Assembly: GCF_039530225.1 (NCBI RefSeq)
Contig: NZ_BAAAOH010000001.1
Location: forward strand, 744,001 to 808,000
Direction: 5' to 3'
Length of the DNA: 64,000 bases
Source of the DNA: Microbacterium pumilum
GTDB lineage: Bacteria > Actinomycetota > Actinomycetes > Actinomycetales > Microbacteriaceae
Every line of letters starts with the position of its first letter. The first letter of the stretch is position 1. A program made the position numbers and the translations under genes. The notes below the pieces were generated by a model. That model made no database searches. It saw nothing but the letters and a program-made list of their open reading frames with translations, and was not told where the DNA came from. This document shows, in pieces, positions 1,022 through 48,590 of the stretch.

Positions 1022-2761
1022 GTGACGATCAGCGACACCCATGAGCACGCCGGTGCGCCGCGCCCCGAGCACGCGCCGGCCCGGCCCCCGCGACCCTCAT
1101 CCAAGCCCAACGGGCAGTGGAAGATCGACGGCACCACCCCGCTCAACGGCAACGAGGAGTGGAAGCAGGTCGACGGCGGACTCGCGGTGCGCGAGCGCAT
1201 CGAGAAGATCTACGCCCCCGGCGGCTTCTCGAGCATCGACCCCACCGACCTGCACGGCCGCTTCCGCTGGTGGGGCCTCTACACGCAGCGCAAGCCCGGG
1301 ATCGACGGCGGCAGGACCGCCACGCTCTCACCGGAAGAGCTCGAGGACGAGTACTTCATGCTGCGCGTCCGCATCGACGGCGGCCAGCTGACCACCGAGC
1401 AGCTGCGCGTCATCGGCGACATCTCCACCGAGTTCGGCCGGGGCACCGCCGACCTGACCGACCGTCAGAACATCCAGCTGCACTGGATCGAAGTCGAGGC
1501 GATGCCCGAGATCTGGCGCCGACTCGAGGGTGTGGGCCTCGGCACGACCGAGGCGTGCGGCGACGTGCCCCGCGTCATCCTGGGCTCGCCCGTCGCCGGC
1601 ATCGCCGCCGACGAGCTCATCGACCCCACGCCGCAGATCGACGAGATCACCTCGAGGTTCATCGGCGATGAGTCGCTCGCGAATCTCCCGCGCAAGTTCA
1701 AGTCCGCCATCACGGGGCATCCGAGCCAAGATGTCGTCCACGAGATCAACGACGTGGCGTTCGTCGCGGTGCAGCATCCCGAGCTCGGCATCGGCTACGA
1801 CCTGTGGGTCGGGGGTGCGCTCTCGACCGCGCCGCGTCTGGGCGAGCGTCTCGGCACGTTCGTCGCTCCCGAAAAGGTGGCGGATGTCTGGCACGGCGTC
1901 GTGCAGATCTTCCGCGACTACGGGTACCGGCGACTGCGGAACAAGGCCAGGCTGAAGTTCCTCCTCGCCGAGTGGGGCACCGAGAAGTTCCGCCAGGTGC
2001 TGCAGGACGAGTACCTCGGCTATGCCCTGCCCGACGGCCCCCCGGCGCCGAAGCCGCTGACGCAGGGCGACCATGTCGGCGTCCACCGCCAGAAGGACGG
2101 GCGCTTCTACGTCGGGGTCACGCCCATCGTCGGCCGCGTCTCGGGCCCGACTCTCTCGAAGCTCGCCGACCTCATCGAATCACACGGCTCCTCGCGACTG
2201 CGGACCACCCCGCACCAGAAGCTCGTGATCCTCGACATTCCCGAAGACCATGTCGAGTCGCTCATCGCCGGCCTCGACGACCTGGGCCTTCAGGCGCGTC
2301 CGAGCCTCATCCGCCGCGGCACCATCGCGTGTACGGGGCTCGAGTTCTGCAAGCTCGCCATCGTCGAGACCAAGGGCTTCGCGACGACGGCCGTGCTCGA
2401 GCTCGAGGAGCGCCTCGCCCAGTTCGACCTGCCGCATCCGATCAGCCTGCATGTGAACGGCTGCCCCAACTCGTGCGCGCGCATCCAGACCGCCGACATC
2501 GGGCTCAAGGGCCAGCTCATCATGGATGACGCCGGTCAGCAGGTGCCCGGCTACCAGGTGCACCTCGGCGGAGGGCTCGCCTCGCAGCACCGCGACGAAG
2601 CCGAACTCGGCCGCACCGTCCGCGGCCTCAAGGTGACCGCAGACGGTATCGCGGTGTACGTCGAGCGCGTGGTCACGCGATTTCTCGCGGATCGGGATGC
2701 TGCGACCGACGAGACGTTCGCCGAGTGGGCCCATCGCGCCGAAGAGGAGGCGCTGCAATGA
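1022..2761 (+). CDS. sir: Ferredoxin-dependent nitrite/sulfite reductase (siroheme, 4Fe-4S)
   Basis: 579 residues. The cluster/siroheme cysteines are C437-x5-C443 (CTGLEFC) and C481-x3-C485 (NGCPNSC), the signature of the NirA/Sir family, and both duplicated halves are present. It would reduce sulfite to sulfide with six electrons from ferredoxin. Nitrite is the alternative substrate, but the gene sits with cysH, cysD and cysN, which makes sulfite much likelier. GTG start at 1022 is preceded by GGAGG at 1012-1016. The first 35 residues are Pro/His-rich and not part of the family core. The stop overlaps the ATG of a short ORF at 2758 (ATGA). Confidence 0.93.
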   Translation: MTISDTHEHAGAPRPEHAPARPPRPSSKPNGQWKIDGTTPLNGNEEWKQVDGGLAVRERIEKIYAPGGFSSIDPTDLHGRFRWWGLYTQRKPGIDGGRTATLSPEELEDEYFMLRVRIDGGQLTTEQLRVIGDISTEFGRGTADLTDRQNIQLHWIEVEAMPEIWRRLEGVGLGTTEACGDVPRVILGSPVAGIAADELIDPTPQIDEITSRFIGDESLANLPRKFKSAITGHPSQDVVHEINDVAFVAVQHPELGIGYDLWVGGALSTAPRLGERLGTFVAPEKVADVWHGVVQIFRDYGYRRLRNKARLKFLLAEWGTEKFRQVLQDEYLGYALPDGPPAPKPLTQGDHVGVHRQKDGRFYVGVTPIVGRVSGPTLSKLADLIESHGSSRLRTTPHQKLVILDIPEDHVESLIAGLDDLGLQARPSLIRRGTIACTGLEFCKLAIVETKGFATTAVLELEERLAQFDLPHPISLHVNGCPNSCARIQTADIGLKGQLIMDDAGQQVPGYQVHLGGGLASQHRDEAELGRTVRGLKVTADGIAVYVERVVTRFLADRDAATDETFAEWAHRAEEEALQ

Positions 2762-2898
2762 GTAGCTCGCTGCGCGGGATCGCGCACTCCGGCGGAGATC
2801 TGCCGTTCGAAGGACGGATGGCGAGCGGGGTCTCCTTCGAACGCGCGATCTCCTGTGAATCGACCGTGTCGAACGGCAGCGAGTGGAGGATCCAATGA
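2758..2898 (+). CDS. Small hypothetical protein (46 aa) coupled to both neighbours
   Basis: A 47-codon frame starts at an ATG overlapping the sulfite reductase stop (ATGA, 2758-2761) and ends in a TGA overlapping the cysH ATG (ATGA, 2895-2898). It fills the gap exactly. The product begins MSSSLRGIAHSGGDL and has one cysteine and no recognised domain. The double overlap matches the translational coupling at the neighbouring junctions, so the frame may be translated, either as a small protein or to carry ribosomes to cysH. It has no RBS of its own beyond coupling. Function unknown. Confidence 0.45.
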   Translation: MSSSLRGIAHSGGDLPFEGRMASGVSFERAISCESTVSNGSEWRIQ

Positions 2899-3638
2899 CC
2901 GTGTCCCTCGCCCCACGTCTCGCCACCAAGCGGTCCGCCGAAGAGCTCGAGGCGCTCGCCGAGCAGGGCAACCTCGAGCTCGGCAGTCTGACCGACCATG
3001 AGGCATCCCCCGCCGAGGTCGTCGCGTGGGTCGCCCGCAACTTCGGGGCGGATGCCGCGGCCGTCGCGTGCTCGATGGCCGATGCCGCGCTGCCGCACCT
3101 CGTTGCCGAGCAGCTGCCGGGCGTCGACGTGCTGTTCCTCGACACCGGCTACCACTTCGCCGAGACCCGCATCACCCGCGACGAGGTCGGTCGCGTGCTC
3201 GACGTGCGCATCGTCGACGTGCTGCCGCAGCTGACTGTCCCCGAGCAGGACGCGGAGTTCGGCGCCAAGCTGCACGACCGCAACCCGACGCTGTGCTGCG
3301 AGATGCGAAAGGTCGCACCGCTGAAGGACGCACTCGCCGGCTACGAGCTGTGGTTCACCGGCGTCCGCCGCGAAGAGGCTCCCACGCGCACGAACACGCC
3401 CCTCGTCACCTGGGATGCGCGAAATGGCCTGGTCAAAGTCAACCCGGTCGCCGCGTGGACCTTCGACGACCTGCTCGACTATGCCGGTGCCCATCAGGTT
3501 CCGGTGAACCTGCTCGTGACGAACGGGTACCCCTCGATCGGCTGCGAGCCGTGCACCAAGCCGGTCGCAGCCGGCGAGGACCCCCGCTCGGGTCGATGGG
3601 CCGGCCTCTCGAAGATCGAATGCGGGCTGCACCTATGA
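2895..3638 (+). CDS. cysH: Adenylyl-sulfate (APS) reductase, 4Fe-4S type, CysH
   Basis: 247 residues of the PAPS/APS reductase family. C134-C135 (LCCEMRK) and C217-x2-C220 (CEPC) are the four ligands of the 4Fe-4S cluster found in APS-reducing members and absent from PAPS-only enzymes. The catalytic cysteine is C243 in the terminal ECGLHL. It reduces activated sulfate to sulfite with thioredoxin, upstream of sulfite reductase. ATG 2895 is preferred over GTG 2883 because GGAGGA lies at 2885-2890 and the ATG overlaps the preceding stop. The stop overlaps the cysD ATG. Confidence 0.94.
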   Translation: MTVSLAPRLATKRSAEELEALAEQGNLELGSLTDHEASPAEVVAWVARNFGADAAAVACSMADAALPHLVAEQLPGVDVLFLDTGYHFAETRITRDEVGRVLDVRIVDVLPQLTVPEQDAEFGAKLHDRNPTLCCEMRKVAPLKDALAGYELWFTGVRREEAPTRTNTPLVTWDARNGLVKVNPVAAWTFDDLLDYAGAHQVPVNLLVTNGYPSIGCEPCTKPVAAGEDPRSGRWAGLSKIECGLHL

Positions 3639-38203: not shown

Positions 38204-38893
38204 TCAGGAATGCTCGGCGCCGCGGCCCCACCGGAAGGGCGAGACTGTGGGATTCCCGGCGATCCAGAAGCGCCACGGAAACGCCGCGGTGCCCGCGACG
38301 CCCGCGACCCCGACGCGGGGTCCGGCTGCGATGCCGGTCAACGGCTGCGCGCGCAACGAAAGTCGTGCGGCGGCGCCGTGCCACTCGGAACCGGTGACGG
38401 CGTCGATGCCGTCATGGATCGGATGCCGCAGCCCCACTGCATCGCCGAGGCGGCCGGGTCCACGCGCCAGGTCGCGCGGCGAGCGCGCAGCCGGGCGGCG
38501 CCGGGCCGCGGCATCCTGCCCCTCGATGATCTCTCCGGCACGCAGCAGGATTCCGCCCGCGACCCCCGGAGGCCCGCAGACCACGTTCACGCACGAATGG
38601 ATGCCGTGGCTCAGGTAGACGTACAGGTGGCCGGGTTCGCCCCACATCGTGGCGTTGCGCGCGGTCTGACCCATCCGCGCGTGTGACCCCGGATCGGGGA
38701 CAGATCCTGTGCCGAGCCCGTGGTACGCCTCGACCTCGGAGAGCCGCACGGTGACGATCTCGCCCGCCACCGTGGTCGTGAGGTGCGCGCCCAGAAGGCG
38801 CGGCGCGACATCCGCCGGCAGTCCCTCGAAGTCAGCGCGGACCGCCGGGCGGACCGTGCCCGCGGAGTCGGTCGCCGCCGGCGGGTCGCTCAA
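38204..38893 (-). CDS. 3-methyladenine DNA glycosylase (AAG/MPG family)
   Basis: 229 residues. APRLLGAHLT, EVEAYHGLGTGSVPDPGSHA, ARMGQTARNATMWGEPGHLY and VYLSHGIHSCVNVVCG are the AAG signatures, with Glu in EVEAY the catalytic residue. It excises alkylated purines. A TTG start at 38893 (SDPPAATDS) overlaps the zur stop (TTGA), and no ATG or GTG gives a sensible start, so it is translationally coupled to zur. Frames further upstream lie within zur in another frame and are rejected. Confidence 0.85.
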   Translation of the reverse strand: MSDPPAATDSAGTVRPAVRADFEGLPADVAPRLLGAHLTTTVAGEIVTVRLSEVEAYHGLGTGSVPDPGSHARMGQTARNATMWGEPGHLYVYLSHGIHSCVNVVCGPPGVAGGILLRAGEIIEGQDAAARRRPAARSPRDLARGPGRLGDAVGLRHPIHDGIDAVTGSEWHGAAARLSLRAQPLTGIAAGPRVGVAGVAGTAAFPWRFWIAGNPTVSPFRWGRGAEHS

Positions 38894-39369
38894 GCGCTCG
38901 CAGGCGCCGCCGCGCACGACGCGCACAGGCCGAAGATGTCGACGACGTGCTCGGCTTCGGTGAAGCCGTGCGCCGCGGCGGTGCGCTGCGCCCACTGTTC
39001 GACATCCGTCGCGGCGATCTCGACCGTCAGGCCGCATGATCGGCAGATCAGGTGGTGGTGATGTCCGGGAGAGGTGCACGCGCGGAACAGGTTCTCGCCC
39101 TCGGGGCTCTGCAGCGAGTCGGCCTCGCCCTGTGCGGCGAGCCCGGCGAGCGCGCGGTACACGGTCGCGAGACCGATCCCGGTGTCGTCGTCGCGCAGCG
39201 TCGCATACAGCGTCTGAGCGCTCACGAAGCCACTGGCGTCGGAGAGCGCTTCGCGCACTCGATCGCGCTGCCAGGTGTTCCGGTGCACCACCATGCCTGG
39301 AATTCTAGTCGCGGGGCGCCCACCCCGGCCGGGAGCAGCGGTGGCGCCCCTGCCCTCTGTTCCTGTCAT
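38890..39369 (-). CDS. zur: Fur-family zinc uptake regulator, Zur
   Basis: 159 residues from ATG 39369, which overlaps the znuB stop (ATGA); the core starts at MVVHRNTWQRDRVREAL. The wing is FVSAQTLYATLR and the metal sites include TSPGHHHHLICRSCG and FGLCASC, a Fur-type Cys4 structural zinc pattern. Co-translation with znuB, znuC and znuA identifies it as Zur rather than Fur. It would repress the operon at the Zur box 42030-42044. A shorter start at ATG 39294 is possible. Confidence 0.88.
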   Translation of the reverse strand: MTGTEGRGATAAPGRGGRPATRIPGMVVHRNTWQRDRVREALSDASGFVSAQTLYATLRDDDTGIGLATVYRALAGLAAQGEADSLQSPEGENLFRACTSPGHHHHLICRSCGLTVEIAATDVEQWAQRTAAAHGFTEAEHVVDIFGLCASCAAAPASA

Positions 39370-40229
39370 GCGACAGTCCTCGTGACCCGGCCGCGCCGCC
39401 CGCCGACGACCCGGCACACGACATAGATGAGGAACGAGATCGTCGTGATGAAGGGACTGACGGGCAGCGTGCCGGCGACCGCGAGAAGGATGCCGCCCAC
39501 CGCCGACACGAAACCGAACGCCGTCGCGAGCAGTGGAACCGACCGCGGTCCCGTGGCGACGCGCATGGCCGCGGCCGCGGGCGTGACGAGCAGCGCCATG
39601 ACCAGCAGCGCACCGATGATGTGCACGCTGACCGCGACGATGAGCCCGAGCAGCAGCATGAAGGTGAGCGATACGGCTGTCGTCGGCACTCCGCGTGCAG
39701 CGGCCGACTGCGGATCGAGCGAGTCGAATCGCAGCGGTCGCCAGATCACGAGCAGCGCCGCGAGCGCGACGGCGCTGATGGCGATCAGCCAGCCGAGCTG
39801 ATCGGACTGCACCGACACGATCTGACCGGTCAGCAGACTGAACCGGTTGGCGCTGCGGCCGTCGTACAGCGACAGGAACAGGATGCCCAGCCCGAGCCCG
39901 AACGGCATCAGCACGCCGATGATCGAGTTGCGGTCCCGTGCTCGCGCGCCGAGCCAGCCGATGATCGCGGCGGCGATGAGGGACCCGACGATGGAGCCCG
40001 TCACGACGTCGGCGCCGATCAGGAGCGCCGCCGCCGCACCGGCGAACGACAGTTCGGCGATGCCGTGCACGGCGAACGCCATGTCGCGCTGCATCACGAA
40101 GACGCCCACGAGGCCGCCCACGAGACCGAGCACGGCACCCGCGACGACGGCGTTCCAGACGAGCCCGAGGATCTCGCCGTAGAAGGGGAGCCCGGCGAAC
40201 ATCGCATCCCAGATGTCGGCCCAGTTCAT
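39366..40229 (-). CDS. znuB: Zinc ABC transporter permease, ZnuB
   Basis: 287 residues of the ABC-3 permease family with about eight membrane segments. MQRDMAFAVHGIAELSFAGA carries the conserved His/Glu. It forms the channel with ZnuC. Start 40229 overlaps the end of znuC, and its stop overlaps zur. Manganese is a possible alternative substrate in the family, but Zur and the operator favour zinc. Confidence 0.9.
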   Translation of the reverse strand: MNWADIWDAMFAGLPFYGEILGLVWNAVVAGAVLGLVGGLVGVFVMQRDMAFAVHGIAELSFAGAAAALLIGADVVTGSIVGSLIAAAIIGWLGARARDRNSIIGVLMPFGLGLGILFLSLYDGRSANRFSLLTGQIVSVQSDQLGWLIAISAVALAALLVIWRPLRFDSLDPQSAAARGVPTTAVSLTFMLLLGLIVAVSVHIIGALLVMALLVTPAAAAMRVATGPRSVPLLATAFGFVSAVGGILLAVAGTLPVSPFITTISFLIYVVCRVVGGRRGRVTRTVA

Positions 40230-41050
40230 CCGTCGGCCTCATCGTGCTCGTGATGGTGATGCGACTCCTCGGCGTCGGGCGCACCCACGACGACCAGCCG
40301 ACCCCCGGCGCGCAGCACGAAGACCGGCGCACCGTACAGAGCGGTGAGCACCTCGGAGTTCAGGACCTCATCCGGTCGCCCGAGCATGAACCTGCCGTTG
40401 GCGAGGTACAGGATGCGGTCGACCTTGCCCAGCACGGGGTTGATGTCGTGCGTCACGAGCAGGACGGCCCCGCCGCTCTCGCGGCGGTACCGGTCGATGA
40501 GCTCGACGACGGCCTGCTGGTTGGCGAGATCGAGGCTCGTGAGCGGCTCGTCGCACAGCAGCAGTCCCGGATCGTCGGCGAGTGCCTGTCCGACGCGCAG
40601 GCGCTGCTGCTCGCCGCCCGAGAGCAGCCCGACCGGATCGTCCGCGAAGTCGCGGGCTCCGACCGCATCGATCAGGCGCTCGATGCGCTGCGCGTCGCCG
40701 CGTCGCGAGAACGGCAGGCCGAATCGGTGGCCGTCGACCCCGAGCGCGACGAGGTCGCGGCCTCGCAGAGCCGTCTCGGGCGGCAGCGGGCGCTGCTGCG
40801 GGATGTAGCCGATGCGCCGGTTGCCGCGCCCGCGGACCGGCTCGCCCAGCGCGCGGATGCTGCCCTCGCTGAGCGCCTCGAGTCCTAGGATCGCCCGCAG
40901 CAGCGTCGTCTTGCCCGACCCGCTGGGCCCGAGCACGGCGATCAGCTCGCCGGGCTCGACGGCGAGATCCAGACCCTCCCACAGCCGACGATCGCCTCGA
41001 CGCAGTCCGGCGCCGGTGATCTCGAGCGGCATCGGATGCGGCGGGGTCAT
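40226..41050 (-). CDS. znuC: Zinc ABC transporter ATPase, ZnuC
   Basis: 274 residues from ATG 41050 (MTPPHPMPLEITGAG), which overlaps the znuA stop (ATGA). Walker A GPSGSGKTTLLRAILG, signature LLSGGEQQRLRVGQAL and Walker B LLLCDEPLTSLDL are intact. The C-terminus ends ESHHHHEHDEADG, a His-rich tail that may hold metal before or during transport. An in-frame start 45 bases upstream is within znuA and rejected. Confidence 0.91.
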   Translation of the reverse strand: MTPPHPMPLEITGAGLRRGDRRLWEGLDLAVEPGELIAVLGPSGSGKTTLLRAILGLEALSEGSIRALGEPVRGRGNRRIGYIPQQRPLPPETALRGRDLVALGVDGHRFGLPFSRRGDAQRIERLIDAVGARDFADDPVGLLSGGEQQRLRVGQALADDPGLLLCDEPLTSLDLANQQAVVELIDRYRRESGGAVLLVTHDINPVLGKVDRILYLANGRFMLGRPDEVLNSEVLTALYGAPVFVLRAGGRLVVVGAPDAEESHHHHEHDEADG

Positions 41051-42009
41051 TGCGCGAGTCCGTCGGTGAGGGCAGCGATGTTCGCCTGCATCCATTCGAT
41101 GTAGCTGTCGCCAGCCGGCAGCGTCTCGGCGAATTCCAGCACGGGGACCGACTGCGCGTCGGCTTCACCGAGCACCAGTGTCGTTTCTGTGCCGCCGGTC
41201 TGCGCGTTGACGATGACGATCGCCACGTCGTCCGAGCGCAGCAGCTTGAGTGCTTCGAGAAGGGTCGCGGGCGCGACATCCTGGCCCTCTTCGACCGCCT
41301 GCGTGAAGTCATCAGGAGCGACGTCGACGAGCCCGGCTGCGTCGGTGAGGTGGAGCGGCAGCGGTTCGGTCACGAAGATCTCGGTGCCGCCGTGCGCCTC
41401 GTCGATCCGCGCGAGTCGGTCCTCGAGTTCGGCGATGCCGGCCATGAAGGCGTCGAGATTCGTCGCGAACTCGGCTGCGTGGCCGGGGTCGAGCACCTCG
41501 AGCTGGGACTGGATGCCCTGGGCGAGCGCGCCCATCGCCTGAACGTCGTACCAGACGTGCTCGTTGAACCCGTCGATGTGTCCGTGATCCTGGTCGTGAT
41601 CGTCGTGACCGTCTGCGGATTCGGTGGCCGCTCCGCCGGGCCAGTCCCACGAGAATTCGACGGCCGTCAGCACCGGGGACTTCGACCCGCTCGCTTCGAT
41701 CAGCGCGTCGACGAAGGCGTCGTAGCCGCCGCCGTTCTCGATGACGAGGTCGGCGTGGCGCACAGCCAGCTGGTCGCGCGCGCTCGGCTCGAACGAATGC
41801 GGATCCTGGGCGGCCGACGAGATGATCGGGGTGACGTCGACGAGGTCGCCTCCGATCGCTTCGGCGATCTGGCCGTACGCGCTCGTGGAGGCGACGACCG
41901 CGACGGGCCCACCGTCGCCGCCGGCGGCGGTTCCCGCACATCCCGCGAGCGCGAGAGCGGATGCGGCGGCCAGGGTCATAGCCAGCATCAAACGCGTCGG
42001 GGGGATCAC
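41047..42009 (-). CDS. znuA: Zinc-binding lipoprotein ZnuA
   Basis: 320 residues from GTG 42009. The signal ends at the lipobox ALALAGC. The cluster A-I metal fold has DPHSFEPSARDQ, a His/Asp-rich loop (HDDHDQDHGHIDG) and EHVWYDVQAM, typical zinc-binding features. It captures zinc for ZnuBC. Longer frames upstream would lack a signal at the N-terminus. The Zur box at 42030-42044 lies 20 bases upstream of the start. Confidence 0.9.
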   Translation of the reverse strand: MIPPTRLMLAMTLAAASALALAGCAGTAAGGDGGPVAVVASTSAYGQIAEAIGGDLVDVTPIISSAAQDPHSFEPSARDQLAVRHADLVIENGGGYDAFVDALIEASGSKSPVLTAVEFSWDWPGGAATESADGHDDHDQDHGHIDGFNEHVWYDVQAMGALAQGIQSQLEVLDPGHAAEFATNLDAFMAGIAELEDRLARIDEAHGGTEIFVTEPLPLHLTDAAGLVDVAPDDFTQAVEEGQDVAPATLLEALKLLRSDDVAIVIVNAQTGGTETTLVLGEADAQSVPVLEFAETLPAGDSYIEWMQANIAALTDGLAQ

Positions 42010-42029
42010 ACTTCTCAACCTAACGCTAT

Positions 42030-42044
42030 TGATAATCGTTCTCA
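42030..42044 (-). promoter_or_regulatory. Zur box upstream of znuA
   Basis: TGATAATCGTTCTCA, read on the minus strand TGAGAACGATTATCA, matches 12 of 15 positions of the actinobacterial Zur consensus TGAAAATGATTTTCA. It lies just upstream of the znuA start and so probably covers the promoter of znuACB-zur. The intergenic region 42010-42335 otherwise holds the direct repeat at 42216-42258. Confidence 0.82.
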
Positions 42045-42215
42045 AGTCAATCTCGAGTCTGCCTTCTCCACCATGACCTTCGTGCTCACACGCAAGCTCT
42101 CGGATCTCGCGATGCGACGTTGACGGCCGGAAGCGATGACCGTCCGGACGCAGTTGGCAGGCTTCTGGGATCCTCACCGGGCGCGACGATCGACACGCGG
42201 CTCGAACGGGAGCGC

Positions 42216-42258
42216 GTGAGCGCGAAGTTCAACCAGGGCATGTGAGCGCGAAGTTCAA
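42216..42258. repeat. Two 17-base direct repeats (GTGAGCGCGAAGTTCAA)
   Basis: The repeat occurs at 42216-42232 and 42242-42258, 26 bases apart, in the gap between znuA and the PheRS-like gene. A small GACAG-AAA-CTGTC hairpin follows. No coding frame is supported here. It may be a regulator site or the relic of a mobile element. Confidence 0.5.
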
Positions 42259-42335: not shown

Positions 42336-43502
42336 TCAGCCGAGGCGCCGGGCACGTCCGTCGAACCCGGATCCCGGACGGGCTGAGATCAACTCCATGA
42401 CCGGTCCCTCGTGCACGGCCAGATAGATCGCATTGCGGATCGCGTTGGCCTGATCCGAGGTGAGCGTCCGATCGATCGGCCGCAAGACGATCCGCAGCAG
42501 GAGATTGACCTGCCCATCTCGGGTTCCGAGACGCGACCGCGCCGCGTGGGGGAGTGACTCATGAGGCGTGCGACTGAGCAGTTCGATCGACTCGACGACA
42601 TCCGCATCTTCTCCGAGAGCGGTGCGGATGCGGTCACCCAGCGTCTCCTCGTCCTCGTCTGCAGCGACCACCACGGAGATGTCGCGCCGTGAAGCCGGGA
42701 GTGGTGAGACATCCCGCCACGGCTCGAGGCTCAGCATCTGCGAGGCGATCCGGGGATCTTCCGCGCGCAGGTAGCGGATGTCCGGAATGGACTTCCGCAG
42801 CATCAGGGCGCGTTCCAGCCCCATGCCCAGCGCGAGCCCCGACCACCGGACCGGGTCCAGACCCGAGCCGAGCAGAACATCGGGATGGATGCGGCCGCAC
42901 TCCGCCAGTTCGAGCCACTGGCCCTCATGGCGCACATCGATCTGACGCCCGGCGACGGTGTACGGGTGCGTCGCGTCGGCGACCGTCCACTCCGCGCCCG
43001 GAAGGACCGCCTCGACCAGGCGTTCGATCATGACGAGCATGTCGCCATCGTCGGATTCGCCGGTGCTGCGAATGCGCCAGAGATCGACCTGATGGGGTTC
43101 GCCGACATGGCTGCGGTCGACCGTATCTCGCCGGTAGACGAGCCCGGGCGCGACGATGAGCTCGTCGACATCCGACCGGCCGGCATAGTGCTCGAGTGCG
43201 GCAGGCAGTTCTGCGCTGGTGTGACTGCGCAGCATCACTGTGGGACTGATGTAGCGGGTGTACCGCCGGGCACGGGTCACGTCGTCGGCGTTGTAGCCGA
43301 GGCGGTCGTAGTTCTCGTGCACCGGCACGACGGGCGAGCTGCGCACGTAGCGGACCGTGCTGCCCCACTCGGATTGCAACGCGGCGACCACCGCGTCGAG
43401 AAGGACTTGGATCGCGTGCTCGCCGTGAGCGGGGTCGGTCAGATCGCGCAGCGCGAGCGCGCGGGAAAGCTGGTCGGGCGTCAGATAGTCGACATACGAC
43501 AT
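42336..43502 (-). CDS. Orphan PheRS-alpha-like ligase with FDX-ACB domain
   Basis: 388 residues. The class II core has VYRRDTVDRSHVGEPHQVDL (motif 2) and GLALGMGLERALMLRKSIPD (motif 3), the PheRS alpha pattern. The C-terminal 110 residues look like an FDX-ACB/anticodon-binding domain (RRDISVVVAADEDEETLGDR). This layout recalls monomeric mitochondrial PheRS rather than bacterial alpha2-beta2 PheRS; no pheT neighbour is present. I recall a RefSeq family called PheS-related mystery ligase SrmL that may fit, unverified. It follows E2 of the dehydrogenase complex by 225 bases and is preceded by a structured leader (43506-43630). Confidence 0.75.
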   Translation of the reverse strand: MSYVDYLTPDQLSRALALRDLTDPAHGEHAIQVLLDAVVAALQSEWGSTVRYVRSSPVVPVHENYDRLGYNADDVTRARRYTRYISPTVMLRSHTSAELPAALEHYAGRSDVDELIVAPGLVYRRDTVDRSHVGEPHQVDLWRIRSTGESDDGDMLVMIERLVEAVLPGAEWTVADATHPYTVAGRQIDVRHEGQWLELAECGRIHPDVLLGSGLDPVRWSGLALGMGLERALMLRKSIPDIRYLRAEDPRIASQMLSLEPWRDVSPLPASRRDISVVVAADEDEETLGDRIRTALGEDADVVESIELLSRTPHESLPHAARSRLGTRDGQVNLLLRIVLRPIDRTLTSDQANAIRNAIYLAVHEGPVMELISARPGSGFDGRARRLG

Positions 43503-43505
43503 GAG

Positions 43506-43630
43506 GGGGTCTCCAAAACGGTTGCGGGCTGGCGGAGGAGGACTACCCCCGGCCGTGCCTGCGGAGACCCGGTGCTATCGGCGCACGTCGGAGACCCCGA
43601 GGCCGTTAGCCGGCCGGGGGTCGCGAAATC
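43506..43630 (-). promoter_or_regulatory. Structured 5' leader with alternative anti-SD pairings before the PheRS-like ligase
   Basis: On the minus strand the Shine-Dalgarno GGAG (43514-43511) lies in GGAGACCCC (43514-43506), which can pair fully with GGGGTCTCC (43598-43590) or with a second copy GGGTCTCC (43570-43563). A competing hairpin pairs GACCCC (43622-43617) with GGGGTC (43598-43593), with an inner GGCC/GGCC stem, and would free the SD. A GTGC/GCAC hairpin (43586-43572) and GGGGG/CCTCC (43550-43537) lie between. Translational control is inferred. Confidence 0.6.
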
Positions 43631-43727
43631 GCTGCTGCTCGTGCACGCCACCAGGGTACATCCGCCCGCTACGCCTCAGCGAGCGCCCGCACGGCGCCGG
43701 CACGCGCCGGCCGCGCCGCGCCCCGCG

Positions 43728-45095
43728 TCAGTCGAGGAGGAGAGCGGGCTCTTCGAGGATCGACGCGATGTCGGCGATGAAGCGGGACGCTCCGTCACCG
43801 TCGATCACGCGATGGTCGAACGAACCCGCGACGGTCGTGACGAACCGCGGTCGAACCTCGCCGTCGACGACCCACGGCTTCTGCCGGATCGTGCCGAGGG
43901 CGACGATCGCCGCCTCACCCGGGTTGATGATGGGGGTTCCGGCATCCATCCCGAACACCCCGATGTTCGTGATCGTGATCGTGCCGCCCTGCTGGTCGGC
44001 TGGGGTCGCCTTGCCGTCGCGCGCGGTGATCGTGAGCTTCTCCAGCGCACGGGCCAGGTCGCGCATGTTGAGGTCCTGCGCATCCTTGATGTTCGGCACG
44101 AGCAGGCCGCGCGGCGTCGCCGCGGCGATGCCCAGGTTCACATAGTGACGCACACGGATCTGCGCACCGTCTTCGACATCGACCCACGCGGCGTTCACCA
44201 TCGGCGTGCGGCGCACGGCCCAGATGACGGCGCGCGCCATGATCAGCAGGGGCGAGATCTTGACGTCGGCGAAGTCGGTCGATGCCTTGAGCCTGCGGAC
44301 CAGCTCCATCGTGCGGGTGGCGTCGACGTCGGTCCACACCGACACGTGCGGGGCGGAGTACGCCGACTGCACCATGCCCGAGGCCACCGCCTTGCGCACG
44401 CCCCGGACCGGGATCGATTCCTCGCGCCCCTCGACCGGGTCAGCGACCTGTCGCGTGACCGGAGCCGGGCGTGCGGGAGGGGCGGCGGCGACCGGGATGG
44501 TCTCTTCGCGCACCTCGGGCCACTGCGGCGTCTCGATGTTGCGGAACACCGACGCCTGCGACGCGTGCTTGAGCACGTCGTCGCGGGTGACCTCGCCGGC
44601 GGGGCCGCTCGGGACGACATGCGTGAGGTCGACGTCGAGATCGCGGGCGAGCTTGCGGATCGGCGGCTTCGCGACGACGCCGACGGATGACTCGACCCGC
44701 TCCTGCGCGCTGACGGCGGGCTTGCGGCGGCGTGACTGGGCGTGGCCGCCGGTGCCGTAACCGACCAGCACCGCGCCTTCGCCCCCTGAAGCCGGCTCGG
44801 CCGGCTCGCCGTGCTCACTCTGGCCGACGGTCGCGGGTCCGGCGGGGGCCGCGACCGACGAGGCGATCGTGATGATCGCGGCGCCGACGTCGACCGTGTC
44901 GCCCTCGGCCGCGAGCAGTTCGCCCACCGTCCCTGCGAAGGGGGAGGGCAGCTCGACGAGCGATTTCGCCGTCTCGATCTCGACGAGGACGTCGTTGACC
45001 GCGACCGCATCCCCGGGGGCGACGTGCCACGACACGATCTCAGCCTCGGTGAGGCCTTCGCCGACATCGGGGAGAAGGAACGTCTGAGTGCTCAT
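43728..45095 (-). CDS. bkdC: Dihydrolipoamide acyltransferase E2 of a 2-oxoacid dehydrogenase
   Basis: 455 residues from ATG 45095 ([19 protein letters not shown]), with AAGGA 7 bases upstream. It has one lipoyl domain (lipoyl-lysine K44 in [10 protein letters not shown]), a peripheral-subunit-binding domain ([20 protein letters not shown]) and the acyltransferase core with [13 protein letters not shown] as catalytic His-Asp. With E1-alpha and E1-beta it forms a branched-chain 2-oxoacid (or pyruvate) dehydrogenase. E3 is not in the window. A 136-base palindrome separates it from E1-beta. Confidence 0.9.
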
Positions 45096-45112
45096 CGGGA
45101 GTCCTTTCGCCG

Positions 45113-45248
45113 CCGGTCGTTGAGCGAGGAGCGAAGCGACGAGACAAGACGTGGCTCCCCGACGAGGCTCATCGGCTCGGCGCATTTCGTCTCGCGGAGA
45201 CTAGCACTGAGCGAGCGCCAGCGAGTCGAAGTGTCGCTCAACGACCGG
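45113..45248. repeat. 136-base palindromic element between E1-beta and E2 genes
   Basis: Its outer arms CCGGTCGTTGAGCGA (45113-45127) and TCGCTCAACGACCGG (45234-45248) are perfect 15-bp inverted repeats, and weaker inner symmetry continues. No open frame is supported inside. It resembles a small MITE/REP-like element and would form a strong hairpin in the operon transcript. Confidence 0.7.
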
Positions 45249-45260
45249 TAGGCAGCCATG

Positions 45261-46331
45261 TCAGTAGGTGAGGGATCGGTCGACGGCCTCGAGGATGCGG
45301 TCGGCGTCGGGCAGGTACGCGCCTTCGAGCTTGGCCGGAGGGAACGGCGTGTCGAAGCCGGACACGCGAAGGACCGGAGCTTCGAGCGCGTAGAACGCCC
45401 GCTCCATCACGGTCGCCGCGATCTCGGAGCCGAGGCTCGTGAAGCCCGGGGCCTCCTGCGCGTAGACCATCCTGCCGGTCCGCCTGACGGAGTCGAGGAT
45501 CGGGCCGTAGTCGACGGGCGACAGCGATCGCACATCGACGACTTCGCAGCTCGTGCCCTCGGATTCCGCGATCGCGGCCGCCTGCAGGAGCACCGAGACC
45601 ATCGCTCCGTGTCCGACGAGGGTGACGTCGGTGCCTCGCCGCACGACGCGGCTGGCGTGAAGGGGCAGCGCTCGGGCGGAGGTGTCGACCTCGCCCTTCT
45701 GCCAGTACTTGGCCTTGGGCTCGAGGAAGATCACGGGGTCGGGCGACGCGATCGCATCCTGGATCATCCAGTAGGCGTCATTGGGGGTCGAGGGACTCAC
45801 GACGCGAAGCCCGGGTGTGTGGGTGAAGTACGCCTCGGGGCTCTCCTGGTGATGCTCGACAGCGCCGATGTGTCCGCCGTACGGGATGCGGATCACCACC
45901 GGCAGCTGCAGCGCACCCTCATGGCGATAGGTCTGCTTGGCGAGCTGGGAGGTGATCTGATCGAACGCGGGGAAGACGAAGCCGTCGAACTGAATCTCGC
46001 ACACCGGCCGAAAGCCCGCCATCGCCAGTCCGATCGCGGTGCCGACGATGCCCGACTCGGCGAGCGGGGTGTCGAGCACACGTCGATCGCCGAATTCGGC
46101 CTGCAGACCCTCGGTCACCCGGAAGACTCCGCCCAGCGGCCCGATGTCCTCGCCCATCAGCAGCACTCGGTCGCTTCCGGCGAGTGCCGCCCGCAGGCCG
46201 GCGTTGAGCGCGCGGCTGAACGGCATGGTGGTCACGGTCGAAGCAGCCGGGCTCGCATCGGTCGCTGAGCCTGTCGAAGCGGCCGCGCTCGCATCGGTCG
46301 CTGAGCCTGTCGAAGCGATCGTCTCGGTCAT
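45261..46331 (-). CDS. bkdB: 2-oxoacid dehydrogenase E1-beta subunit
   Basis: 356 residues from ATG 46331, which overlaps the E1-alpha stop (ATGA). LLMGEDIGPLGGVFRVTEGL, LDTPLAESGIVGTAIGLAM and EIQFDGFVFPAFDQI are transketolase-like beta motifs. Family conservation starts near residue 36 (MPFSRALNAG). The residues before are two 12-residue copies of ASTGSATDAS(A/P)A, encoded by the dispersed repeat at 46260-46316, and partly match the CysD N-terminus. It pairs with the alpha subunit to bind ThDP. Confidence 0.9.
   Translation of the reverse strand: MTETIASTGSATDASAAASTGSATDASPAASTVTTMPFSRALNAGLRAALAGSDRVLLMGEDIGPLGGVFRVTEGLQAEFGDRRVLDTPLAESGIVGTAIGLAMAGFRPVCEIQFDGFVFPAFDQITSQLAKQTYRHEGALQLPVVIRIPYGGHIGAVEHHQESPEAYFTHTPGLRVVSPSTPNDAYWMIQDAIASPDPVIFLEPKAKYWQKGEVDTSARALPLHASRVVRRGTDVTLVGHGAMVSVLLQAAAIAESEGTSCEVVDVRSLSPVDYGPILDSVRRTGRMVYAQEAPGFTSLGSEIAATVMERAFYALEAPVLRVSGFDTPFPPAKLEGAYLPDADRILEAVDRSLTY
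46260..46316. repeat. Two repeat units inside the E1-beta coding sequence
   Basis: The unit GGTCGCTGAGCCTGTCGAAG starts at 46260 and again at 46296, a 36-base (12-codon) tandem duplication. On the minus strand it is read in frame and gives STGSATDA twice. A degenerate third half-unit is at about 46236-46244. Confidence 0.85.
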
Positions 46332-47473
46332 GACGCCTCCTGCTCGCCATCGAAGGACGCCTCGTACCCGGCGAACCACTGACGCTGCTCCTCGACGAGC
46401 GGATGCGGGTCGGAGTACACGTGGTCGAACATCGCATCCGTCTCGAGGCCGCCCAGCTCACCGGTGCGGATGCGGATGTCTTCTGCGACCGCGGCGGACT
46501 CGGCCTCCACGTCGGCGAAGAAGGCCTCGGACGCGCCGCGGCTCAGCAGATAGTTGCGCATGCGGTCGATCGGGTCGCGTGCCCGCCACGAGTCCTCCTC
46601 TTCGGAGGTGCGGTACTTGGTCGGGTCGTCGCTCGTGGTGTGGGCGCCCATCCGGTAGGTCAGCGCTTCGATGGCACGCGGACCCTCGCCCGCACGCGCC
46701 TCCTCGAGGGCGAGTCTGGTCACGGCCCAGCTCGCGAGGACATCGTTGCCGTCGACGGCGATGGACGGCATCCCGTATCCCTCGCCGCGCTTGTAGAGCG
46801 GCGCACGCGACTGCGTCGCAACCGGCACCGAGATCGCCCACTGGTTGTTCTGCAGGAAGAACACCTGGGGCGTGCGGTAGCTCGCGGCGAAGACCATGGC
46901 CTCGTGGATGTCGCCCTGGCTCGACGCGCCGTCGCCGTAATAGACGATCACAGCCTCATCGCGCTCGGGATCGCCGGTGCCGCTGCGCTCGTCGAACGCC
47001 AGTCCCATGGCCAAACCCGTCGCGTGGAGGGTCTGGGACCCGAGCACCAGCGTGTACACATGGACGTTGCCGTTCTTGGGGTCGAACGGATTCCAGCCGC
47101 CGTGGGTGAGGCCGCGCATCACCCGGATGATGTCGATCGGGTCGACGCCGCGGATGCGGGCCACGACGTGCTCTCGGTATGAGGGGAAGAAGTGGTCCTG
47201 CGGGCGCGCTGCTCGCGCCGAGCCCACCTGGGCGGCCTCCTGTCCGAAGCTCGGCGGCCACAGCGCCAGCTGTCCCTGCCGCTGCAGGTTCGTGGCCTGC
47301 ACATCGAACGCGCGGATGACGGCCATGTCGCGATAGAAGCCCTCGAGTTCGGCGTCGCTGAGAGCGTCGATGAGCGCCAGGTAGGGTTCCGCAGCGGGTG
47401 TCGGTGCGAAGGAGCCGTCCGCTGTGAGAACGCGGACGGTGCCCGGGTCGGGAGAGCTCACAGGCAAGGTCAC
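46328..47473 (-). CDS. bkdA: 2-oxoacid dehydrogenase E1-alpha subunit
   Basis: 381 residues with the ThDP motif GDGASSQGDIHEAMVFAA followed by NNQWAIS, and the phosphorylation-loop-like YRMGAHTTSDDPTKYRTS. It decarboxylates the 2-oxoacid. The GTG start at 47473 lies four bases after the pat stop, so the aminotransferase and the complex form one unit. The Mtb PdhABC/BkdABC arrangement is the closest pattern I know; branched-chain 2-oxoacids are favoured over pyruvate by that comparison only. Confidence 0.88.
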   Translation of the reverse strand: MTLPVSSPDPGTVRVLTADGSFAPTPAAEPYLALIDALSDAELEGFYRDMAVIRAFDVQATNLQRQGQLALWPPSFGQEAAQVGSARAARPQDHFFPSYREHVVARIRGVDPIDIIRVMRGLTHGGWNPFDPKNGNVHVYTLVLGSQTLHATGLAMGLAFDERSGTGDPERDEAVIVYYGDGASSQGDIHEAMVFAASYRTPQVFFLQNNQWAISVPVATQSRAPLYKRGEGYGMPSIAVDGNDVLASWAVTRLALEEARAGEGPRAIEALTYRMGAHTTSDDPTKYRTSEEEDSWRARDPIDRMRNYLLSRGASEAFFADVEAESAAVAEDIRIRTGELGGLETDAMFDHVYSDPHPLVEEQRQWFAGYEASFDGEQEAS

Positions 47474-47477
47474 GGTT

Positions 47478-48590
47478 CTACGCTAACCCTCGTCCGGAAT
47501 GGCCTTCCGGGAGGTCTTTCACAACGGATGCCGCGATCCGTAGGACCTTCTCGACAGACTCTTCCTCACCCACCGAGATGCGGATGCCGTCACCTGCGAA
47601 CGGCCGAACGATCAGACCGGCACCTTCGAACGCCGCCGCGATCTCACGGCTCTCGTCGCCCGCCGGAAGCCAGACGAAGTTGCCCTGCGCGGCCGGGACG
47701 CGCCATCCGACCTCTCGCAGACCCTCGGCGAGGCAATCGCGCCGATCGGCGATCGTGCGCACGCGCTCGAGCAGTTCAGCCTCGGCCGCGAGGCTCGCGA
47801 GCGCCGCTTCTTCGGCCTGCGCGGTGACCGAGAGCGGGATGCTGGCGCTGCGCGCCGCGTCCAGGATCCGCGGATGCCCGACGGCGTAGCCGACCCGCAG
47901 GCCGGCGAGGCCGAACGCCTTCGAGAAGGTGCGCAGGACGACCACGTTGGGTCGCCCGGTACCTCCGGGCTCCCGCAGTCCGTCGACGGAGTCGGGATCG
48001 GTCACGAACTCGGCGTACGCCTCGTCGAGGATGACGAGCACGTCGGCCGGCACTGCGGCCACGAACTGGTCGAACTCGGCCTGGGTGACGACGGGCCCCG
48101 TCGGGTTGTTCGGGCTGCAGACGATGATCGCCCGCGTCCGGTCGGTGATGGCATCGGTCATCGCGGCGAAGTCGTGTCGCGCGTCGGCGGTCAGGGGCAC
48201 CTGCACGGCGGTCGCGCCCGCGACCACCACGAGCCACGGGTACGCCTCGAACGAACGCCACGCGTAGATCACCTCGTCGCCGGGTCCGGATGTCGCCAGC
48301 ACCAGCTGCGCCAGGATCGACACACTGCCCGCCCCGATGTGAATCGAGTCGATGTCCACGCCGAATCGCTCCGCGAGTCGCTCCCGAAGGCGGGCGGCCG
48401 AGGCGTCGGGATAGCGGTTGAGCGCCGTCGCCGCCTGCACGGCCTCGAGCACCCCGGGGAGCGGCTCGAAGGGATTCTCGTTGCTCGAGAGTTTGAAAGC
48501 GTCGTCGCCGGCCTGTCGGCCCTGCTTGTACGGCGGGAGCGCGGCGATCTCTGGGCGCACGCGAATAGGGATGTCGGAGGCCTCGGTCAC
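47478..48590 (-). CDS. pat: Aromatic/phenylalanine aminotransferase, HisC-like (Pat type)
   Basis: 370 residues of the fold-type I HisC branch. [35 protein letters not shown] and the PLP lysine in [17 protein letters not shown] are all present. The substrate-specific YKQGRQ near residue 21 resembles actinobacterial Pat enzymes, which transaminate aromatic 2-oxoacids, though histidinol phosphate is possible. It heads the minus-strand unit with the dehydrogenase genes, so it may provide the 2-oxoacid. Confidence 0.85.

Follow-up and report, generated by a model that had tools for sequence, protein, structure and literature searches.

Attenuators that place a leader peptide with cognate codons and a set of alternative RNA helices before a synthetase gene are described for gammaproteobacterial pheST and for Streptomyces trpS and leuS in sections of a 2005 survey (PMC1262725); the same sections report no conserved RNA structure or attenuator upstream of phenylalanine operons in Actinobacteria. 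Cysteine-rich leaderless upstream open reading frames (uORFs) of mycobacteria are, in an excerpt of a further paper, proposed amino-acid attenuators (PMC4633059). Distant, separately expressed second synthetases can resist inhibitors, as part of a review sets out for TrpRS1 and indolmycin, a second IleRS and mupirocin, and a second SerRS and albomycin (PMC9437257). Here we compare with these systems the gene srmL and its leader, which lie on the minus strand of a 64,000-nucleotide stretch of the Microbacterium pumilum genome (hereafter the window, with coordinates counted from its first letter). The gene (42336..43502, ATG start at 43502) encodes a single-chain ligase of 388 residues that resembles phenylalanyl-tRNA synthetase (PheRS). 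We propose that ribosome-mediated attenuation induces this spare PheRS when Phe-tRNA is short, and we put the joint probability of attenuator, PheRS and induction at roughly 0.65.

The srmL leader shares with the pheST, trpS and leuS attenuators, as the survey sections present them (PMC1262725), the cognate-codon peptide and the alternative helices before a synthetase gene. Unlike them, it mostly holds one Phe codon, is probably leaderless, appears in most copies to act by hiding the Shine-Dalgarno (SD) sequence, and precedes a patchily distributed extra synthetase. It differs from the mycobacterial uORFs, as excerpted, in its codon, its target gene and its co-evolving alternative helices (PMC4633059). 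SrmL is like the antibiotic-insensitive second synthetases in being a distant extra copy beside a housekeeping enzyme and in being sometimes plasmid-borne; unlike them, it has no matching inhibitor known to us, and term counts in the review text returned neither 'phenylalan' nor 'PheRS' (PMC9437257). A literature search found no publication on SrmL, on its leader peptide, or on any bacterial PheRS that is a second copy or a single chain. Each part belongs to a known kind; what is new to us is their combination, a putative leaderless Phe attenuator ahead of a patchily distributed single-chain PheRS in bacteria.

The window protein belongs to NCBIfam family NF051887 (SrmL, 'PheS-related mystery ligase'), whose name gives no function and which here gains a leader that would read Phe codons. 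It scores 528.8 bits over profile positions 1-349 of 349, where the curated cut-off is 300 bits and the full profile is required. A preliminary description of the locus had noted class II PheRS motifs, an FDX-ACB-like tail and the lack of an adjoining pheT, and these hold: the PheRS class II core (PF01409) exceeds its gathering score, the tail (PF03147) reaches 26.5 bits, under the Pfam gathering score of 31.1, and no pheT was found among the neighbouring genes tested at the locus. The layout is that of mitochondrial-type PheRS, one chain with a class II core followed by FDX-ACB, and the predicted fold resembles human mitochondrial PheRS (FARS2; 3cmq, 5mgv) along the whole chain, anticodon-binding domain included, at 24-27% identity. 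SrmL differs from FARS2 in being bacterial, in being extra to an ordinary pheS (present in the same genome, with the beginning of a pheT-like frame behind it), in carrying HPYT for FPFT, and in scoring 130.1 bits against the 258.35-bit cut-off of TIGR00469 (mitochondrial-type PheRS). Comparison with the bacterial PheS profile TIGR00468, a check proposed in the preliminary description, gives 86.9 bits against a cut-off of 237.45; by this measure the protein is not a bacterial PheS. R124, D126, E198, E201 and R231 are invariant among 41 SrmL sequences, as is the block W-x-E-x-x-E-C-G; the HTS motif is not retained in every copy (for example, QMS in Azotobacter).

The substrate-facing residues bear on a different account, in which SrmL charges tRNA-Phe, or some other tRNA, with a different amino acid than Phe or acts in a pathway outside translation, and the Phe codon reports a tRNA pool altered by SrmL. 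HPYT in SrmL aligns with FPFT of mitochondrial PheRS, and H179 and Y181, invariant among the 41 sequences, replace the two substrate-facing Phe residues of FPF in bacterial and mitochondrial PheRS, which we take to be contact residues; the curated NCBI name, too, stops short of PheRS. However, Tyr at the second of these positions is shared with archaeal and cytosolic PheRS, the likewise invariant A224 is presumably the counterpart of the small residue at the para position in PheRS and disfavors Tyr as the substrate, and Phe codons occur in srmL leaders of two unlike designs. A non-Phe substrate seems unlikely to us. Judged by its sequence, SrmL has Phe as its likeliest substrate and is probably a PheRS. 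The earlier suggestion that the acceptor might be a small RNA or another non-tRNA substrate is unsupported: the chain matches mitochondrial PheRS through the anticodon-binding domain, and Phe codons are found even in an unrelated-looking phage leader.

The core of the leader is an upstream reading frame that the preliminary description had missed. This frame (43575..43646, minus strand) begins with GTG and comprises 23 codons, encoding VHEQQRFRDPRPANGLGVSDVRR followed by a stop; its codon 7 is UUU for Phe (43626..43628), a conserved codon without a helix to explain it. A -10-like box, TACCCT (43653..43658), lies 6 nt before the GTG. Such a frame is present at 77 of the 80 loci with DNA upstream of srmL (73 found by a detector and 4 added by hand). 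The other three are L067, where the motif is degraded, and two phage loci, L107, whose Phe leader is of a different design, and L108, which lacks a leader. F-x-x-P is built into the detector, and conservation was hence judged by the 80-locus denominator and by controls. The detector picks up 73 of the 77 genuine leaders, none of the 23 regions upstream of canonical pheS, 5 of 77 reverse strands and 5 of 946 other stretches; when the -10 box is added, the counts become 71, 0, 0 and 1.

Phe is encoded by TTT in 62 of the 64 distinct frames and by TTC in the other two, and its codon stands at codon 7 in 49, at codon 8 in 11 and elsewhere in four. The next fixed codons, which fall in helix arm A1, specify Pro (64/64) and then Arg (61), Pro (2) or Trp (1). 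Outliers among the 77 leaders include L033, with CTG as its start, and L099, with Phe at codon 11. TTT is rare relative to TTC in gene-like frames, some of which may be wrong-strand frames: 13 versus 476 in the window and 195 versus 1881 in 23 relatives. Genomes that prefer UUC nonetheless retain UUU here, and conservation therefore concerns the codon and not merely the residue. A search for a TANNNT box 3-10 nt before the frame start succeeded in 61 of 64 distinct leaders, at gaps of 5-8 nt, versus 3 of 952 background windows. This spacing is as for leaderless mRNA, and the upstream frame is probably leaderless. Within the genus, the upstream pattern of the srmL leader, GCGATTTNNNNNCCCCCGGCC, occurs in 7 of 149 genomes, once each and always beside srmL; these are the same seven genomes whose SrmL exceeds the NF051887 cut-off, and the pattern read backward matches nowhere in the 149.

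Arrest peptides such as the erm leaders sense ribosome-directed antibiotics, and the F-x-x-P core of the frame, mostly F-x-x-P-R, could be read in the same way, with SrmL protecting the cell by some other route. The patchy spread of srmL and one plasmid copy beside a chloramphenicol efflux gene would suit this idea. Yet P-R falls in helix arm A1, P-W or P-P takes its place in three distinct leaders, UUU persists in genomes that prefer UUC (the 13 to 476 of the window), and the sole likeness of the phage peptide is Phe. We regard an arrest peptide as very unlikely and attenuation at a Phe codon as highly probable.

Five segments on the minus strand make up the pairing part of the leader. A1 (CCCCCGGCCG, 43611..43620) starts 8 nt downstream of the first Phe-codon base and can pair with A2 (CGGCCTCGGGGTCTCC, 43590..43605) or, over 11 bp, with A3 (CGGCCGGGGGT, 43545..43555). 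The G-run of A2 can instead pair with the conserved anti-SD segment B (GGGTCTCCG, 43562..43570), and B can pair with A2 or with C (TGGAGACCC, 43507..43515), which contains the SD of srmL. The preliminary description had placed its elements correctly on this strand: the SD within GGAGACCCC (43514-43506), a first complementary copy GGGGTCTCC (43598-43590) now held in A2, a second copy GGGTCTCC (43570-43563) now recognized as B, and GACCCC (43622-43617) opposite the first copy.

Co-evolution was assessed by comparing cognate arms with arms swapped between leaders, using 38 representatives of 69 leaders (15 at a coarser level), a clustering that controls only roughly for relatedness. The z scores are -8.5 (-4.7) for A1:A2, -8.1 (-5.5) for B:C and -6.3 (-4.4) for A1:A3. 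A2:B, at -4.0 (-3.2), is the weakest of the three alternating helices, and its segments may take in a small local hairpin near the stop codon. The control pairs A1:C at 0.2 (-0.7), A2:A3 at 0.3 (-0.4) and A2:C at 0.3 (1.0) do not co-evolve; A3:C scores -7.1 (-5.3) with a segment that overlaps B and is therefore not independent. With A1, A2, B and C numbered 1 to 4, helices 1:2, 2:3 and 3:4 thus co-vary, as an attenuator demands, and the exclusive pairs of the putative switch are A1:A2, A2:B and B:C. Across 22 aligned close relatives, A1:A2 and B:C together show 17 cells with two-sided change (shuffled mean 5.1; 0 of 500 shuffles as high). Weaker measures give five pairs with two-sided change (33/500 as high) and 11 further pair types (204/500). 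A1:A3 is 100% paired and nearly invariant in these relatives. Relative to shuffled 3' regions in 62 leaders, A1:A3 (7-16 bp, mostly beginning 8 nt past the first base of the Phe codon) has a mean z of 4.0-5.2 in five groups; B:C is distinct in group 1 (2.4) and, by helix length alone, not distinct in groups 3 and 4.

The covariation analysis that the preliminary description had called for upholds two of its pairings, the GACCCC/GGGGTC hairpin (A1:A2) and the pairing of the SD with the second copy (B:C), which shows compensatory changes in the 22 relatives. The perfect match between the first copy and the SD is not retained in relatives; 85.8% of its cells are paired, one is compensatory and 77 of 500 shuffles are as good, in line with the A2:C scores of 0.3 and 1.0. 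That description had taken the leader for a riboregulator of a non-canonical ligase that senses an RNA or amino acid. The conserved alternative pairings able to hide and free the SD bear out the regulatory part, whereas the sensor is most likely a ribosome decoding the Phe codon and not a directly bound RNA or amino acid. A highly conserved leader with exclusive helices would be expected of a ligand-binding riboswitch or of a direct RNA or protein binder as well. Against such a binder, the conserved stretch outside the helices is a reading frame whose start is probably leaderless, arm sequences vary between leader groups with pairing preserved, and a search of the window leader with E values up to 5 allowed gave no match to an Rfam family (T-box or known riboswitch); nor is there an Rfam match at gathering scores in the leaders of five relatives. 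Direct binding of a ligand, RNA or protein appears most improbable.

From the frame, its Phe codon, the -10 box, the co-evolving pairs and the one-to-one link with srmL in the genus, all read from the DNA, and from the predicted protein fold, we infer the following course. The mRNA would begin at the GTG of the short leaderless frame, whose codon 7 is UUU, and srmL would be a spare, mitochondria-like PheRS gene kept silent by a translational attenuator, its product perhaps serving as a standby or inhibitor-resistant enzyme. With ample Phe-tRNA, the ribosome would move past this codon, A1:A2 and B:C would form, and the SD would be hidden, leaving srmL untranslated. When Phe-tRNA is short, the ribosome would pause at UUU and mask the start of A1, 8 nt downstream; A2 would then be free for B, the SD would open, and SrmL would be made and restore Phe-tRNA. 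A terminator would replace SD hiding in Azotobacter and a huge phage.

The phage record LR745206.1 (635 kb) carries an srmL that is 40% identical. Its leader, ATG AAC ACG AAT ACT ACA TTT AAT TTC TTT TTT AGC CAC AAA ATG GTC TGA, encodes the peptide MNTNTTFNFFFSHKMV with four Phe codons. A segment overlapping the stop codon, GGTCTGAG, can pair with a later CCCTCAGAC, and a terminator, CCCTCAGA...TCTGAGGG-TTTTTT, follows. In snapshot folds, a ribosome at the Phe codons gives the antiterminator a probability of 0.94-0.99, and the antiterminator also arises with the ribosome at some neighboring codons; its probability is 0.01 when no ribosome is present and 0.00 when one stands at the stop codon. 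On this modeling, the phage leader is a classical attenuator built of peptide and terminator. It looks unrelated to the common leader, yet codes for the same amino acid before the same protein. Terminator-like hairpins also lie around A3 in Azotobacter (L105), L049 and L092.

For the common leaders, ribosome positions were modeled relative to the conserved Phe codon (F), with F+n and F-n denoting codons after and before it. The snapshot transcripts were cut 24 nt past the first stop-codon base, a point that lies immediately ahead of A3 in most group 1 leaders and within A3 in many of groups 2 and 3, and a ribosome footprint of two sizes was placed at each codon. Snapshots covered 52 actinobacterial leaders plus Azotobacter and the phage, shuffle-controlled snapshots 58 leaders, and equilibrium SD folds 62. 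Duplicates, leaders without a clear srmL start and the four later hand additions were dropped; the rows left out are copies of the window locus (L001, L056, L109), matches that begin within the gene (L009, L053, L055, L069, L094, L104) and pattern matches at loci already counted (L112-L118). With the ribosome at F to F+4, the expected number of B:A2 pairs is 10.3-13.9 for group 1, 8.4-12.0 for group 2 and 10.5-13.3 for group 3; it drops to 1.9 when no ribosome is present and to 0.0 with one at F+12. Measured against whichever of the free and stop states does better, a ribosome at F to F+2 adds 8.8 pairs, versus 0.8 in dinucleotide shuffles (58 leaders); this gain exceeds 3 pairs in 51 of 58 leaders and is matched by 82 of 870 shuffles of the same leader. 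A2:B is thus favored in the snapshots by a ribosome at the Phe codon, which is the logic of classical attenuation.

Several observations, in addition to the HPYT residues, weigh against this proposal. The rise in B:A2 starts before F (5.3-11.8 pairs at F-1) and ends at about F+5, later in group 3; an effect spanning roughly F-1 to F+5 does not, in these models, single out F. In full-length equilibrium folds of the 62 leaders, the SD is mostly closed at all ribosome positions, with a mean change of -1.0 kcal/mol at F, and a second equilibrium analysis of these leaders gave no clear SD change with ribosome position. The equilibrium terminator is more probable with the ribosome at F than elsewhere (0.96 in Azotobacter, 0.99 in L092), falling to 0.00 a few codons before F and, at the stop codon, to 0.18 in Azotobacter and 0.00 in L092; L049 shows little terminator throughout, and the phage leader has a terminator probability of 1.00 at every position. 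We give the snapshots more weight than the equilibrium folds, a judgement made because a classical attenuator is kinetic. By helix length alone, A1:A2 and A2:B are not distinct from shuffled 3' regions in any group of the 62 leaders. A1:A3, the most widespread pairing and near-universal, fits neither an on nor an off state cleanly. Classical attenuators usually have repeated regulatory codons, and most of the leaders here have a single Phe codon. In the second huge-phage contig (L108, at 2350-3060), srmL lies directly behind a gene that looks kinase-like by eye and has no leader. Lastly, the survey sections note that the actinobacterial LEU element also occurs in leaders with leucine codons, yet codon mutations left regulation uninfluenced (PMC1262725).

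The distribution of srmL is patchy. SrmL above the family cut-off is found in 7 of 149 genomes of the genus. With the window SrmL as query (E <= 1e-70), matches occur in 12 of 398 family, 11 of 396 order and 26 of 394 class genomes, samples that overlap and each include the window genome; the Azotobacter SrmL (E <= 1e-60) finds 3 of 396 genomes of a phylum sample. Named genome contigs supplied 24 loci, of which the first 14 listed have 75-83% identity over nearly the full protein and span about a dozen genera. All 10 distant proteins scanned, including Azotobacter and one phage copy, exceed the SrmL cut-off, and relatives above it occur in a gammaproteobacterium, a cyanobacterial bin and a huge phage. 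The gene lies on the Glutamicibacter plasmid pGnB68, where the chloramphenicol efflux gene adjoins it, on an Azotobacter plasmid and in two huge-phage contigs. This patchy spread suggests horizontal transfer. Tests of 20 flanking genes at other loci revealed only an integrase core, at two loci.

Should the leader sense Phe-tRNA, the most likely product of SrmL is Phe-tRNA; a widespread 'mystery ligase' family would gain a testable job, phenylalanine would join the amino acids with attenuators in Actinobacteria, and bacteria would gain a single-chain PheRS. More tentatively, and with the odds somewhat against it, SrmL might be the first known bacterial single-chain PheRS and a mobile standby enzyme, carried by bacteria of several phyla and by huge phages and induced in response to a natural inhibitor or analogue that blocks the housekeeping enzyme; the leader would then be a two-register switch in which A1 chooses A2 or A3 by ribosome position. 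We know of no inhibitor for SrmL. A patchy, sometimes plasmid-borne second PheRS hints at undiscovered natural PheRS inhibitors, which could be drug leads.

Some copies show traces of their recent history. Loci L036, L095 and L106, which involve Brevibacterium mcbrellneri and plasmid pGnB68, have an identical leader, and in L036 and L106 the coordinates of the reading frames around srmL are identical as well; this likeness reflects a recent transfer of several kb. In L009 and L053, the SrmL match covers the C-terminal part only, beside near-identical upstream DNA that resembles a transposase by eye, and srmL seems interrupted by an insertion. L067/L069 is a decaying copy, with srmL split in two pieces and the leader motif degraded. 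In the window, two exact copies of TTGAACTTCGCGCTCA, with starts 26 nt apart, lie just 3' of srmL (42217-42258, minus strand), where none is expected by chance; the pair is possibly the remains of a mobile element.

Directly upstream of srmL (43728-48590, minus strand) are genes for a HisC-like aminotransferase (PRK03321) and for the E1alpha, E1beta and E2 components of a 2-oxo-acid dehydrogenase; none of the 20 flanking genes tested at other loci is of either type. Downstream (38890-42177, minus strand) lies the binding protein of a zinc- or manganese-type metal ABC transporter, with matches to AztC and MntC, and beside it stand an apparent ATPase, a permease and a Fur-family regulator, assigned by eye.
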